The notes under the pieces were generated by a model. That model was not told the origin of the DNA and did no database searches. It saw only the letters and a list, made by a program, of their open reading frames with translations. A stretch of DNA of 34,654 nt from a virus. The stretch spans positions 1 through 34,654 of the IMG/VR virus record IMGVR_UViG_3300032296_000257. One strand, 5' to 3'. Made by a program: the position numbers and the translations under genes. Positions 5,886 to 34,654 of the stretch are shown in pieces; positions within the stretch are counted from its first letter, which is position 1; every line of letters starts with the position of its first letter.

Positions 5886-8195
5886 ATGCCCCTACAAGTA
5901 TTCGGTGGTTCTCTTCTTCTACCTCTCCGCATAGATGGTTATACATTTGACCGAATCCCATACACGGGTTCTGTGGACGAAAGATTCTCCACACAACTAC
6001 TGGATCAACTTCCGGGATTCGTGATTGAGAACTATGAAACCTTTGTGCAGTTCTTGAAGGCATACTACGAGTGGTCAGAGCAATATGGAAATCCAAGAGG
6101 AGAGGGTGTTCGTCTCACAACATACTCCGACTTGGATCATACCCTTGATTCATTCGTTCAATACTTCAGAGACACATATCTGAAGGATTTTCCATTCAAT
6201 ACGGCAGACGGAATCAACGAAAAGACTCTGATAAAGAACATCAGCGATCTTTACAATGCCAAAGGTTCTAGATCGTCTTTTGATCTTCTGTTCAGACTTC
6301 TTTTCAATACGACCATTGATGTTGATTTTCCAAAGGATAGAATCCTAAGACTATCGACAAGTACTTTCGATGATCGTCAGTTCATAAGAATTCCTTCTGT
6401 GATGTCGATTGACGAAGCGAAGACTCTTGAGAATAGTCTTATAATTCAAAGATATGAAGGAAATAAAGGAATAGTTGCCACCGCCTTGATTGATGAAGTA
6501 AAGTTCGTCAACGAGGGTGGATTTGACTTTCTTTCTCTTGCTGTTCAGAATGTTTCAGGTGAGTTTGTAAGTTCTCTACCAATCAAATTTGATATCAAAG
6601 GAACCACACAGCAAACATACTATGCATATCCCATACCCACATTAGGTTCCATGAAAATAAACTCAGGTGGTAGTGGATATCAAATTGGTGATTTGGTTCA
6701 AGTAAATGATCTTTATGGAAACAAACTGCTCGACGCGAGAGTAAGTAAACTAGGAGCGGGAAACCAAGTTCGTGGTTTCAACTACACGAACAATTATGGC
6801 GTATACCGCTCTGATGAAGGGGTGACATACACCATAGACACAGCAGCGGGTGTTGGTCTTAGTCTTTCACCTCAAGCAGAGCAAATCATCACCGATGGGC
6901 CAGACGATTATCTTGATGAAAGTGGTAAACTGAGTTCTCGTTCCTTCATTCAAGACAGTTTCTTTTTTCAAGATTACTCTTACATCATCAGAGTGAACAA
7001 GAGTCTTGCAAAATTTGCGGATGCTGTGAGAAAACTAGTTCACCCTAGCGGTTCTCTCATGTTCGCGGAGTATATCAATGAAGTGTCGATGACTGCATCC
7101 TCTGATTTTAATGCAGAGAAAAACACTACATTTGTTCCTGTCATCGGTCACTATCTTCCCCACACATTTGGAACAACAATCGACCCCCGTGGTTTCACCT
7201 ACACAACAGGAGCGGGAAGCACATTCTACGATTTCTACCCAAGGGGTTACAATGGTCAAGATGGTAGAACTGCGGGAGACTTCATCAATACTTCACGGGT
7301 GAATAGCACATATGGAACACCCCACCTATTTGTCGATCAGGGTGTCACACACGATCCCACAAAAATATACACATCTGCGAGTAAGTCAGCATCATTTGAT
7401 TCATTTGAGGCATCTAGAACATTGATAAATGGAGCGATAGGTTCAACTGGTTATATTGGGGCAACTGTTGATACTGAAGGAGAGGGTGTCGGTCTTTATG
7501 GATGTTTTCCTGTGGGTTCAAGTAGAACCAATACAGTTGCATATGGTCTAACACACTACGGCGGTTATACTTGCCCACCACTTTCTGGTCTTTCGGGTGG
7601 TGTAACATCGGCCCAGATAATTCAAGTCAGAGGAACCGACTCCGCAACAGCAGACTATTGGATAGTGAATCACCACATCAACTCTATAGGTCTTGATGAT
7701 CTTGGAGTCACAGGTGTAAATGAAGTGTATAGAATACCAGTACAACAAGTTACAACTAATGATACACAATATCCCGTGTATGGTAATAGAAGTGGTTATG
7801 GTTCATTTGGATCGGAGAAAGGATTTACTCTCAATGGTGGTGCGACATATATCATCGGTGAAATTGTAAGACAAAAGAAATGGAATGAACCTGAAGCAAT
7901 AGGAAGAGTATTGCAGTTCAAGGCGAGTGGGTATCACCAAGGTCTTGGAACACCCTACTGGAACAATGGAATAGATTGGGTTACTGTTGAAGTACTCAAT
8001 GGTAAATTCAGTAAATACTTAGACTCCTCACGGGTGTATCGACCCATCACAGGAGACGATAGCGGTTGTTCAAGACTTGTAGATCAATCCTATAATGGAA
8101 ACATACATACATCTGTGACCCATGACACCAGTTGGATGGATGTTCCTATTGAAATCATCATAAATGACATCACCGTGTTGAATTCAGTTACTTAA
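5886..8195 (+). CDS. gp7: Baseplate wedge protein, gp7-like
   Basis: A 769-residue protein with GGAGTAGAAC before its ATG. Residues about 40-65 (LPGFVIENYETFVQFLKAYYEWSEQ) and about 80-150 form a helical N-terminal domain typical of the wedge protein found between gp6 and gp8 in cyanophage-type T4 relatives. After about residue 230 the protein becomes beta-rich, with Gly/Ser/Thr/Tyr-rich stretches. T4 gp7 is longer (about 1030 residues) and similarity is mostly by position and the N-terminal block, so the gp7 label is partly inferred from gene order. gp7 clamps gp6, gp8 and gp10 together in the outer wedge. Confidence 0.7.
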   Translation: MPLQVFGGSLLLPLRIDGYTFDRIPYTGSVDERFSTQLLDQLPGFVIENYETFVQFLKAYYEWSEQYGNPRGEGVRLTTYSDLDHTLDSFVQYFRDTYLKDFPFNTADGINEKTLIKNISDLYNAKGSRSSFDLLFRLLFNTTIDVDFPKDRILRLSTSTFDDRQFIRIPSVMSIDEAKTLENSLIIQRYEGNKGIVATALIDEVKFVNEGGFDFLSLAVQNVSGEFVSSLPIKFDIKGTTQQTYYAYPIPTLGSMKINSGGSGYQIGDLVQVNDLYGNKLLDARVSKLGAGNQVRGFNYTNNYGVYRSDEGVTYTIDTAAGVGLSLSPQAEQIITDGPDDYLDESGKLSSRSFIQDSFFFQDYSYIIRVNKSLAKFADAVRKLVHPSGSLMFAEYINEVSMTASSDFNAEKNTTFVPVIGHYLPHTFGTTIDPRGFTYTTGAGSTFYDFYPRGYNGQDGRTAGDFINTSRVNSTYGTPHLFVDQGVTHDPTKIYTSASKSASFDSFEASRTLINGAIGSTGYIGATVDTEGEGVGLYGCFPVGSSRTNTVAYGLTHYGGYTCPPLSGLSGGVTSAQIIQVRGTDSATADYWIVNHHINSIGLDDLGVTGVNEVYRIPVQQVTTNDTQYPVYGNRSGYGSFGSEKGFTLNGGATYIIGEIVRQKKWNEPEAIGRVLQFKASGYHQGLGTPYWNNGIDWVTVEVLNGKFSKYLDSSRVYRPITGDDSGCSRLVDQSYNGNIHTSVTHDTSWMDVPIEIIINDITVLNSVT

Positions 8196-28900: not shown

Positions 28901-29551
28901 ATGCTTCTAATCACAGAAACAACCCACGATGTTAGACTAGTCACCGAAGGTGTCGATGGTGGTTCCAAGAACTACTTCATCGAAGGCATCTTCATGCAGT
29001 CTGAAAAGAAAAACCGCAACGGTCGCGTCTATCCCAAGAAGATTCTCTCGGGTGAGGTTGCTCGTTACAACAACGAGTTTGTGAAGCAGAACAGAGCAAT
29101 GGGAGAGTTGGGACACCCCGAAGGCCCAACTGTGAATCTTGAGCGTGTCTCCCACATTATCAAAGACCTCCGAGTTGAGGGTGATGATGTGGTCGGTAAG
29201 GCAAAAATCCTCGACACTCCCTACGGAAAGATCGTTAAGAATCTTATTGATGAGGGTGTAAAGATCGGTGTCTCCTCTAGAGGCATGGGATCACTAAAGA
29301 GCATCAACGGAGTAAACGAAGTCCAAGAAGACTTCATGCTTTCTGCTGTTGATATTGTCGCAGACCCATCTGCGCCAAATGCCTTCGTTGAAGGTGTAAT
29401 GGAAGGCAAGGAATGGGTTTGGAATAACGGTGTTCTAGAACCAAGAAACATCGAATCGTACAGGGACAGGATCAAGAGAGCAAGATCAGGCAGAGAACTT
29501 GAGGAAGCGAAGTTGTATGCCTTCGCAGATTTCCTGTCGAAAATTGTTTGA
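28901..29551 (+). CDS. gp21: Prohead core protease gp21
   Basis: A 216-residue protein (T4 gp21 is 212) with the herpesvirus/HK97-type assembly-protease arrangement. It has NRNGRVYPKKIL (38-49), the catalytic-His motif GELGHPEG (68-75, His72), the catalytic-Ser motif VSSRGMGS (124-131, Ser125 or Ser126) and an acidic residue in the AVDIVADPSAPNAF block (149-162). It assembles with the scaffold, then digests the core and trims the capsid protein. T4 gp21 cuts after Leu/Ile-X-Glu. A GAGG ribosome site lies close to the ATG. Confidence 0.94.
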   Translation: MLLITETTHDVRLVTEGVDGGSKNYFIEGIFMQSEKKNRNGRVYPKKILSGEVARYNNEFVKQNRAMGELGHPEGPTVNLERVSHIIKDLRVEGDDVVGKAKILDTPYGKIVKNLIDEGVKIGVSSRGMGSLKSINGVNEVQEDFMLSAVDIVADPSAPNAFVEGVMEGKEWVWNNGVLEPRNIESYRDRIKRARSGRELEEAKLYAFADFLSKIV

Positions 29552-33007: not shown

Positions 33008-33442
33008 ATGAATTTAGAGAACATCAAAAGCATGGTAGCGAAGGATTGTATTATTGACGAAACCCGTCTCGACGCAGAATCTTTGCGCTTGCCCCAACTA
33101 CACAACAAATATCTAAACTTCCTACTAGATGCGAAGTTGATCCTTGAGCGCAAACAAAACGATTTTTATCGTATGCGGAGAAATAAGTGGGAATACTACA
33201 CGGGTAAAATGGACGAAGAAACTCTCGCTCGTCTCGGTTGGAAACCATTTGATCTCAAAATCCTAAAACAAGATATTGCAATCTACCTAGAAGGTGACGA
33301 TGATCTCATTGCTCTTCAAGAGCAAGTCCGTTACTACAGAGAAATGTGTGAATACCTAGACTCCACGGTCAAGGAGATCACATATCGCCACAACAAGATC
33401 AGAAATGCAATTGATTGGCAGAAGTTTATTGCGGGTCAGTAA
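33008..33442 (+). CDS. uvsY: Recombination mediator UvsY
   Basis: A 144-residue protein (T4 UvsY is 137). The N-terminus MNLENIKSMVAKDCIIDE, PQLHNKYLNFLLDAKLILERKQNDFYRM-type helix (about 31-58), RNKWEYYTGK (about 59-68) and DIAIYLEGDDDLIALQEQVRYYREMCEYL-type region (about 84-112) match the UvsY family. UvsY loads the UvsX recombinase on single-stranded DNA covered by gp32. The ATG at 33008 was chosen because UvsY proteins begin Met-(Asn)-Leu-Glu-x-Ile here; the in-frame GTG at 32966 would add 14 unrelated residues. It is the only complete non-morphogenetic DNA-metabolism gene here and appears to have its own promoter. Confidence 0.88.
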   Translation: MNLENIKSMVAKDCIIDETRLDAESLRLPQLHNKYLNFLLDAKLILERKQNDFYRMRRNKWEYYTGKMDEETLARLGWKPFDLKILKQDIAIYLEGDDDLIALQEQVRYYREMCEYLDSTVKEITYRHNKIRNAIDWQKFIAGQ

Positions 33443-33471: not shown

Positions 33472-34512
33472 ATGATCTTGAAGAAGCACATTCCAACCGT
33501 TCACGATATCCACACATACAGTCCACAGGCAATCTATCAGCAAACCGATGGTGTTCAGAATGGTTACAATAGTTCTTGCCAAGGTGTCGCGCTTGATTGG
33601 TCAGGTATTAGTCTTCGCAACAGATCATTCTGTAGAGTTTACCCACAAACTGGTGCTATCAATTTCACGGAACCATATGTCGTATCGGATATCAATTTTT
33701 GGAACACCTGTAATCCCTGCGCGGTTCTTGTGAGTCCAAGACACGCATTGATTTGCCAACACTATCGCGGCACACACGAACGACCTGAAGAATACTACAC
33801 ATTTCTAGGTAAGAGTGGTGTAAAGTATACCCGTAGGGTTGTCGGTGTTACATTGAATATCGGTAGCGACCACACTCTTCTTGAGTTTGATTCCGAATTT
33901 CCCGAAGATGTAAAGGTCTACAACAAGATTGCCGATGTTGAGTTCATCCCTAACGGTTATGATCTTTGGATGCATGACTGCAATGGAAAGTGCGTCAAGA
34001 TAAGAATGAATAAAGCAACTATGGGATACTCTGGTCCAACTGGTTATACTTGGACTCCAATTCTTGATGGTGTAAACAACGGAATAAACACAAATGGAAT
34101 GATGGTCATCTTCACAGGTGATAGTGGAACACCAACATTCGTAGTCGATCAATACGGCAATACAGTTCTAGTCGGTCTGATGTGGGGTGGTATGCAGATC
34201 AATAAAATGGAGTTGGACAACATCAATTCCATAATCAACCCAAAGGGTTACAGCGTCGTTCACACAAAGATCGCGGCGAAGGCAGAAGACTTGAACCAAG
34301 ATGGAAAGGTAGATGCGGAAGACTTGGCGATTCTTTTTGCTTCTTGGGCAAGCGGAGAGGCAGGAGACATCAACATGGATGGTCGTGTTGACTCGCAAGA
34401 CCTTTCTAGAATACTCGCGCAATGGGGAAACTACACAATTGTTTCGAATGCATCTGCTCCACCATCCACAATAATACCTCCCGATTCCGACAACACAAAA
34501 CCCCGAGCATAA
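33472..34512 (+). CDS. Trypsin-like serine protease with C-terminal dockerin domain
   Basis: A 346-residue protein. AAGGGAG nine bases before ATG 33472 decides the start; an in-frame TTG at 33415 lies inside uvsY. Residues about 60-265 look like a chymotrypsin-fold protease: LVSPRHALICQHY (86-98, catalytic His97), SDHTLLEFD (132-140, Asp133 candidate) and FTGDSGTPTF (214-223, catalytic Ser218 in the GDSG motif). Residues 273-319 hold two dockerin type I repeats: calcium loops DLNQDGKVDAED (273-284) and DINMDGRVDSQD (299-310), each followed by a helix ending near Trp (292, 318). A short Pro/Ser/Thr-rich tail ends the protein. No signal peptide is seen. T4 has nothing similar between uvsY and uvsW. 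Possible roles are virion protein processing or attack on host surface proteins at entry or exit; the partner of the dockerin is unknown. Confidence 0.75.
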   Translation: MILKKHIPTVHDIHTYSPQAIYQQTDGVQNGYNSSCQGVALDWSGISLRNRSFCRVYPQTGAINFTEPYVVSDINFWNTCNPCAVLVSPRHALICQHYRGTHERPEEYYTFLGKSGVKYTRRVVGVTLNIGSDHTLLEFDSEFPEDVKVYNKIADVEFIPNGYDLWMHDCNGKCVKIRMNKATMGYSGPTGYTWTPILDGVNNGINTNGMMVIFTGDSGTPTFVVDQYGNTVLVGLMWGGMQINKMELDNINSIINPKGYSVVHTKIAAKAEDLNQDGKVDAEDLAILFASWASGEAGDINMDGRVDSQDLSRILAQWGNYTIVSNASAPPSTIIPPDSDNTKPRA

Positions 34513-34535: not shown

Positions 34536-34569
34536 ACTCATGCAAAACCCTAAATAGGGTAGCATGAGT
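34536..34569 (+). promoter_or_regulatory. Hairpin enclosing the uvsW start codon, with embedded late promoter
   Basis: ACTCATGC (34536-34543) pairs perfectly with GCATGAGT (34562-34569), which contains the uvsW ATG. Inside, ACCCT (34547-34551) pairs with AGGGT (34556-34560) across an AAAT loop. That makes thirteen pairs with one small internal loop. The late-promoter octamer CCTAAATA is within the inner hairpin. RNA started near 34562 would lack the whole first strand. There is no T tract, so it is not an obvious terminator. Confidence 0.6.
34549..34556 (+). promoter_or_regulatory. T4-type late promoter before uvsW
   Basis: CCTAAATA contains TAAATA of the T4 late consensus. The predicted RNA start near 34562 is two bases before the ATG, giving a practically leaderless RNA. 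T4 uvsW is itself a late gene. Confidence 0.5.
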
Positions 34570-34654
34570 GATATTGTAATTGAAGATGTCGATTCAGTCA
34601 ATATAAGGGTTCGCTGCGAAAGAAGCATCGCGAAGGAACTCTCGGACTTCTTCA
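34564..34654 (+). CDS. uvsW: UvsW helicase, N-terminal fragment (runs off window)
   Basis: Thirty codons from ATG 34564 stay open to the window end. The fragment reads like the start of UvsW: a short beta strand with VDSVNIRVRCE, then RSIAKELSDFF, matching the T4 pattern of a strand, an acidic/Cys-Glu pair and a helix ending in (D/E)-x-Phe-Phe. The position just after uvsY supports this. UvsW is the late T4 helicase that resolves R-loops and branched recombination intermediates and helps switch replication from origins to recombination. Only the first 30 residues are visible, so the call rests on a short match plus gene order. Confidence 0.65.
   Translation, partial: MSDIVIEDVDSVNIRVRCERSIAKELSDFF

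Follow-up and report, generated by a model that had tools for sequence, protein, structure and literature searches.

A dockerin-tailed, chymotrypsin-fold serine protease gene between uvsY and uvsW of a T4-like phage, and candidate cohesin partners in other phages that carry the gene

Cohesin-dockerin docking has been reported from bacterial and archaeal cells, and several described systems resemble the phage locus presented here. The 'planctosome' of freshwater Phycisphaerae (Nemodlikiaceae) is itself a hypothesis, namely a cohesin-dockerin peptidase complex made up of peptidases with dockerin tails and of scaffold or adaptor proteins that bear cohesins, and its adaptor, which has a signal peptide, a dockerin and a cohesin, resembles proteins of two phage loci discussed below, L158 and L159 (PMC6461901). 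The planctosome differs in being encoded by bacterial genomes and in having larger anchoring proteins and M12B and M14 metallopeptidases, whereas the phage has a chymotrypsin-fold serine protease (PMC6461901). The cellulosome-like complex of Cloacimonadota (Ca. Stygibacter) likewise has dockerin-tailed peptidases, including a serine peptidase, and a cohesin scaffoldin, but its serine peptidase is of the S8/S53 type, signal peptides are present, the genome is bacterial, and tandem cohesins are accompanied by carbohydrate-binding domains (PMC8542988). The type I and type II pairs of clostridial cellulosomes share with the phage proteins the dockerin fold and sequence (PF00404) and the cohesin fold (Z 15.3 to 2vo8; dyad 3l8q), but the phage system is phage-encoded, no carbohydrate-active enzyme was seen in it, and its enzyme has no signal peptide. 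In the open-access literature we found no report of dockerins or cohesins from phages.

The gene between uvsY and uvsW and its two domains

We analysed a 34,654-nucleotide virus sequence (IMG/VR record IMGVR_UViG_3300032296_000257), called the window throughout, in which the protease gene occupies 33472..34512. The reading frame is intact, with an ATG at 33472, a stop codon ending at 34512 and 346 amino acids plus the stop; the gene, its parts and its two neighbours are all on the + strand. To the left, and separated from it by 29 bases, is uvsY (33008..33442; PF11056, E 2.4e-29; phrog_231), and to the right is the start of uvsW (34564..34654, ATG at 34564), which is cut by the contig end and was recognised through a by-eye comparison with the uvsW of L009. 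L009 is the closest relative by gp23 (77% identity), and there uvsW directly follows uvsY. In gp23-related loci with both genes, uvsY and uvsW are adjacent or at most about 0.65 kb apart, while the 1.1 kb between them in the window is occupied by the protease gene. The first-pass annotation's placement of the gene between uvsY and uvsW is thus confirmed, and gene order in T4-like relatives, which have uvsY beside uvsW without the protease, indicates that it is, as suggested there, an accessory insert. The apparent late promoter that the same annotation had assigned to the gene was not confirmed: TATAAATA, the T4 late promoter, is absent from the entire window, and the nearest CTAAATA, at 34550, precedes uvsW rather than the protease gene, which begins only the 29 bases after uvsY. 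In L009, a different accessory gene of unknown function (L009:1858-3375, 505 aa) separates the tail tube gene from uvsY. The window phage also encodes another serine protease, the T4 prohead protease gp21 (S77) at 28901-29551, which is unrelated to the dockerin-tailed protein in both family and role; the dockerin-tailed protein is not the maturation protease.

The N-terminal region (residues 1-39; 33472..33588) contains an invariant H11-D12 pair, was modelled with low confidence and has by eye no signal peptide. It is followed by the chymotrypsin-fold domain, at about residues 40-265 (33589..34266), whose boundaries come from Foldseek and VIA. The predicted catalytic residues are His97 in ICQH (codon 33760..33762), Asp133 in GSDHTLLEF (33868..33870) and Ser218 in GDSGTP (34123..34125), all three invariant across 13 homologues, as is the stretch Gly216-Asp217-Ser218-Gly219. 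In the sequence alignment, the His-Asp-Ser order with GDSG is that expected for the S1/PA clan. An AlphaFold2 model built from an alignment of 11 sequences had a pLDDT of 66 overall, rising to about 70-95 across most of the protease core and to about 85 in the dockerin. Among the Foldseek matches listed, all were chymotrypsin-fold (S1) proteases (elastase, HGF, Deg5, V8) at a probability of 1.00, and VIA gave the window protease model a Z of 13.5 and an rmsd of 3.0 over 169 residues. The model places His97 in a short helix and Asp133 and Ser218 each directly ahead of a strand, which is the placement of His, Asp and Ser relative to the helix and strands in family S1. Judging from this model, the protease half is a chymotrypsin-fold domain with a predicted double beta-barrel. 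The first-pass annotation had read such a fold from an upstream His and Asp together with GDSG and had tied its reading to a double barrel, and that barrel is present in the model.

The profile search that had been proposed for both domains matched the dockerin to Pfam, but for the protease half (the N-terminal three quarters) nothing was above cut-off in Pfam, PHROGs or NCBIfam and nothing significant was found among PDB sequences; the Pfam Trypsin profile (PF00089) did not reach its cut-off, with a single homologue matched at E 0.14. Fold, triad order and GDSG motif are what the phage protease has in common with S1/PA clan proteases, and it differs from them in having no Pfam match, no Asp189 and no assigned family. 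By sequence register, the position six residues ahead of the catalytic Ser, which is Asp189 in trypsin, is V212, and by the same register no aligned homologue has an Asp there. Because this Asp is missing, specificity for Lys or Arg is probably not to be expected, so that the earlier label 'trypsin-like' fits the fold and probably not the specificity. By eye, no protease homologue has a Sec-like leader, and in-frame extensions upstream supply none.

The type I dockerin spans residues 272-319 (34285..34428) and consists of two calcium loops with a helix after each. Loop 1, DLNQDGKVDAED (residues 273-284; 34288..34323), and loop 2, DINMDGRVDSQD (residues 299-310; 34366..34401), both fit D-x-[ND]-x-D-G-x-[VI]-D-x-x-D exactly, and when the residues of the window protein were shuffled, even one such loop arose in just 2 of 20,000 shuffles. 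The model has helices at 282-290 and 308-316, one after each loop. Pfam Dockerin_1 (PF00404) matched the window protein with 34.7 bits (E 2e-8) against a curated cut-off of 22.9 bits, and it matched all 11 of the 11 aligned homologues; the calcium ligands are nearly all invariant in the 13 distinct homologues. By profile and loop pattern, then, the C-terminal domain is a true type I dockerin, as had been proposed from its two calcium loops. Beyond it, a tail that ends in KPRA (34429..34509) contains K343-P344, which is nearly invariant among homologues.

Other phage proteins have loops or domains of related kinds. Dockerin_1 matches in G016, G014 and G001 were rejected as EF-hand-type loops of other phage proteins that are not protease homologues. 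Several T4-like relatives encode, a few kb upstream of gp23, proteins with a repeated EF-hand-like loop, D-x-[DN]-N-D-G-[DE]-V-D-[DE]-[ST]-D (L005:2770-3459, L010:3229-4062, L011:459-899, L051:2351-2749); these are possibly prohead core proteins and are unrelated to the dockerin. A phage protein of about 800 aa (816 aa in one case) and of unknown family has its own C-terminal dockerin and is encoded directly downstream of the dockerin protease in L100-L102 (L101:3934-6327, L102:5362-7815, L100:3635-6070). In L100-L103, it is this second dockerin protein, in place of a cohesin, that adjoins the protease.

Spread of the family and the two-cohesin proteins

With the window sequence alone as query, a first scan of IMG/VR returned no homologue. 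The first was found when whole records of gp23 relatives were searched, as a full-length, 47% identical protein in G006, a 168-kb T4-like phage. Rescans of IMG/VR with a two-sequence alignment gave 15 loci and with eleven sequences 17 loci, which collapse to 13 distinct proteins, the window's included (12 further, from IMG/VR). The scans were pattern scans, and the counts of homologues and of cohesins are lower bounds. All 13 proteins have both protease and dockerin, at 35-84% identity. In pairs with unsaturated synonymous sites, dN/dS ranged over 0.07-0.24 in the protease, and over 0.08-0.47 in the dockerin and tail taken together, values that point to purifying selection on both halves. No relative of the protease family was found among cultured phages and none in plasmids. 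A single-sequence pattern scan of genome contigs matched only a Ruminococcus dockerin; cellular genomes may hold members of the family as well.

The carriers include both T4-like and non-T4-like phages. The window and G006 phages are T4-like relatives with structural genes in common, and G045 (147 kb), G042 (175 kb) and G054 (129 kb) have, at the threshold used, no other gene in common with the window. The G006 protease is nonetheless 84% identical to the G045-type one, with a branch support of 97/100. Given this similarity, the protease gene has, by sequence comparison, moved between unrelated phages. G054 and G042 are mutually syntenic, yet the protease gene is at a different position in each.

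Two observations on the carriers may bear on their host. ARAGORN predicted phage tmRNA genes in G006 (tag ANKQTRRYALAA) and G042 (L178:4590-4932 and L181:3223-3588), which adjoin tRNA clusters and are a possible host clue. Proteins of G006 (L145:253-996; G006 6071-6820) and G045 (51001-51711) have PEP-CTERM-like C-terminal tails (PxPG, a hydrophobic stretch, RRRR); NCBIfam did not confirm PEP-CTERM for the L145:253-996 protein. These tails, recognised by motif alone, and the barrel-like phage proteins described below fit a diderm, planctomycete-like host and are a possible hint of one.

A search with Pfam Cohesin (PF00963; cut-off 24.1 bits) covered 16 records, that is, 15 carriers and the window, and found one ORF above cut-off and weak matches in four more records. 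These matches are a single protein family with two cohesin-type domains per protein. Tested singly, the proteins of L144 (G044; 26.3 bits), L145 (G006; 34.4 bits) and L153 (G056; 32.1 bits) were above cut-off, and there was no Pfam Cohesin match for P0003 (G042) or L140 (G055). For P0003, the AlphaFold model (pLDDT 73) had as its top Foldseek match the scaffoldin cohesin dyad 3l8q, and against single cohesins its second domain gave a Z of 15.3 (2vo8) with an rmsd of 2.5 over 135 residues. The first domain is supported through 3l8q and through the domain-2 profile, which matches it in some members with E values as low as about 3e-7, and because of this profile relationship to the second domain it is probably a cohesin too. 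On the model, the two-cohesin partner candidate has a cohesin fold. A search of BFVD with the cohesin model returned low-coverage matches alone. By eye, three of the five two-cohesin proteins (L144, P0003, L140) have a Sec-like signal peptide.

In four of the five distinct phages (six contigs: G040-42, G044, G006, G055), the two-cohesin protein occurs together with the dockerin protease; the fifth is G056, a fragment of 28 kb. Between the two genes lie 376 bp in G042, a single thyX gene in G055 and about 3 kb in G044, with both genes on the same strand in each of these phages; in G006 they are far apart. G048 has just a 50-residue cohesin-like C-terminal remnant and was left out of these counts. 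The first-pass annotation had proposed a search for cohesins but had placed the cohesin on the host: cohesins were the right target and are phage-encoded in relatives, although none was found in the 34.6-kb window, which is a fragment. Two large carriers, G045 (147 kb) and G054 (129 kb), likewise had no detectable cohesin protein. Because no cohesin was detected in these three, the cohesin-protease pair is not obligatory.

Two further kinds of protein were noted. In two other phages, L158:4339-5133 and L159:1960-2742 each encode a protein with a signal peptide in which one cohesin-like domain is joined to a dockerin at the C-terminus; these proteins appear scaffoldin-adaptor-like, with the cohesin assigned by similarity to the two-cohesin family and below the Pfam cut-off; a second scan for such adaptors found nothing beyond these two. 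There is also an outer-membrane-barrel-like family with a Sec signal, about 260 aa long and with a C-terminal Phe, one member of which weakly matches PF13557 (L153:11263-12057, L158:3050-3841, L159:7815-8696, L101:6390-7169, L102:7868-8674, L100:6147-6926, L095:13783-14661, L096:9840-10586). This family recurs in many of the phages with cohesin or dockerin genes, often as a neighbour: in L153, L158 and L100-L102, its members adjoin these genes or are near them.

Possible roles of the protease

Our leading but tentative interpretation, to which we give slightly under an even chance, is that the phages encode a calcium-dependent cohesin-dockerin proteolytic complex resembling the planctosome. 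The protease would be made without a leader, and its C-terminal dockerin, with calcium bound in the EF-hand loops, would dock it onto a protein that bears cohesins. In several related phages this would be the phage's own two-cohesin protein, most versions of which have a Sec-like signal peptide. That protein would be exported to the envelope, and the protease would travel with the virion or be released when the cell lyses. With no leader recognisable on the protease and one on most versions of the cohesin protein, the two would encounter each other only beyond the cytoplasm; this same difference counts against the proposed complex, as do the carriers with no cohesin found, the distance between the two genes in G006 and the second dockerin protein of L100-L103. 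Once docked, it would be a phage-made analogue of the planctosome that concentrates proteolysis on envelope or surface proteins. The interpretation is drawn from the computed fold and triad, the dockerin, the conservation of both halves, the cohesin fold and the co-occurrence of the genes, and is favoured as well by their proximity in three phages, by the cohesin-dockerin adaptors and by the complex reported from Phycisphaerae; from these we infer binding of the protease to the cohesin, the calcium dependence, the meeting place, the substrate and a cohesin in the window phage. A wider version, which we regard as somewhat less likely than not, is that large phages which are unrelated but infect one host group encode in common a cohesin-dockerin system that rebuilds or rivals a host surface proteolytic complex during infection; its parts, put forward just as guardedly, would be the dockerin protease, the exported two-cohesin scaffold, the cohesin-dockerin adaptor and the outer-membrane-barrel-like protein.

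The missing signal peptide would also suit a protease of the virion, packaged or attached to the tail, whose dockerin plugs onto a virion protein or which acts at adsorption by clipping host surface proteins. In G054 the protease domain occurs once more, in a diverged version (E 5e-22) that retains the triad but has no dockerin; it forms the N-terminus of a 965-aa protein (L202:13755-16649; G054 111255-114149) whose gene shares a cluster with a baseplate-wedge gene, and the syntenic protein of G042 has no protease domain. This one case suggests that proteases of the family can be virion-borne. Against it, no further protease-tail fusion was found beyond G054, the 965-aa protein is structural by position alone, the stand-alone gene is in accessory places outside the tail clusters, and the cohesin candidates often carry signal peptides, and we consider a virion role for the dockerin protease somewhat unlikely. 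The dockerin could instead bind cohesins of the host, so that the protease is plugged into a host surface complex or displaces enzymes from it. Cohesin-dockerin peptidase complexes have been reported in freshwater Phycisphaerae (PMC6461901), the large carriers G045 and G054 have no detectable cohesin, and the PEP-CTERM-like tails of two carriers, as a motif, fit a planctomycete-like host; but that host is putative and four carriers encode a cohesin protein of their own, which leaves such hijacking a rather unlikely explanation.

Calcium loops stabilise many proteases, and the EF-hand pair might serve the protease itself, as a means of calcium stabilisation or activation or as a solubility tail, and never bind a cohesin. 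The tail-fused copy in G054, which has no dockerin, speaks for this idea. We judge it very unlikely, however, given that the domain has both loops of a complete dockerin and conserved residues in the helices, that dockerins are also present on the unrelated neighbouring 816-aa phage protein and on a cohesin protein, and that the dockerin protease co-occurs with cohesins. Finally, every carrier is a metagenomic contig, as would be so if the gene had come about by misassembly or by a false join of cellular DNA to phage DNA, but the 13 distinct homologues are on independent contigs and inside phage clusters (uvsY/uvsW here, gp23 and gp32 regions elsewhere), and we give this explanation almost no credence.

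Both halves of a docking system that has otherwise been reported only from cellular life thus seem to be present in phages. Having both halves on phage genomes gives a concrete binding prediction, and the phage cohesin and dockerin offer a phage-derived interaction pair. The protease domain in a tail-module protein of one phage hints at two ways to position one enzyme. For the phages themselves, the proposed cohesin-dockerin complex suggests a way in which hosts that are difficult to culture, perhaps Planctomycetota, may be acted on at their surface.
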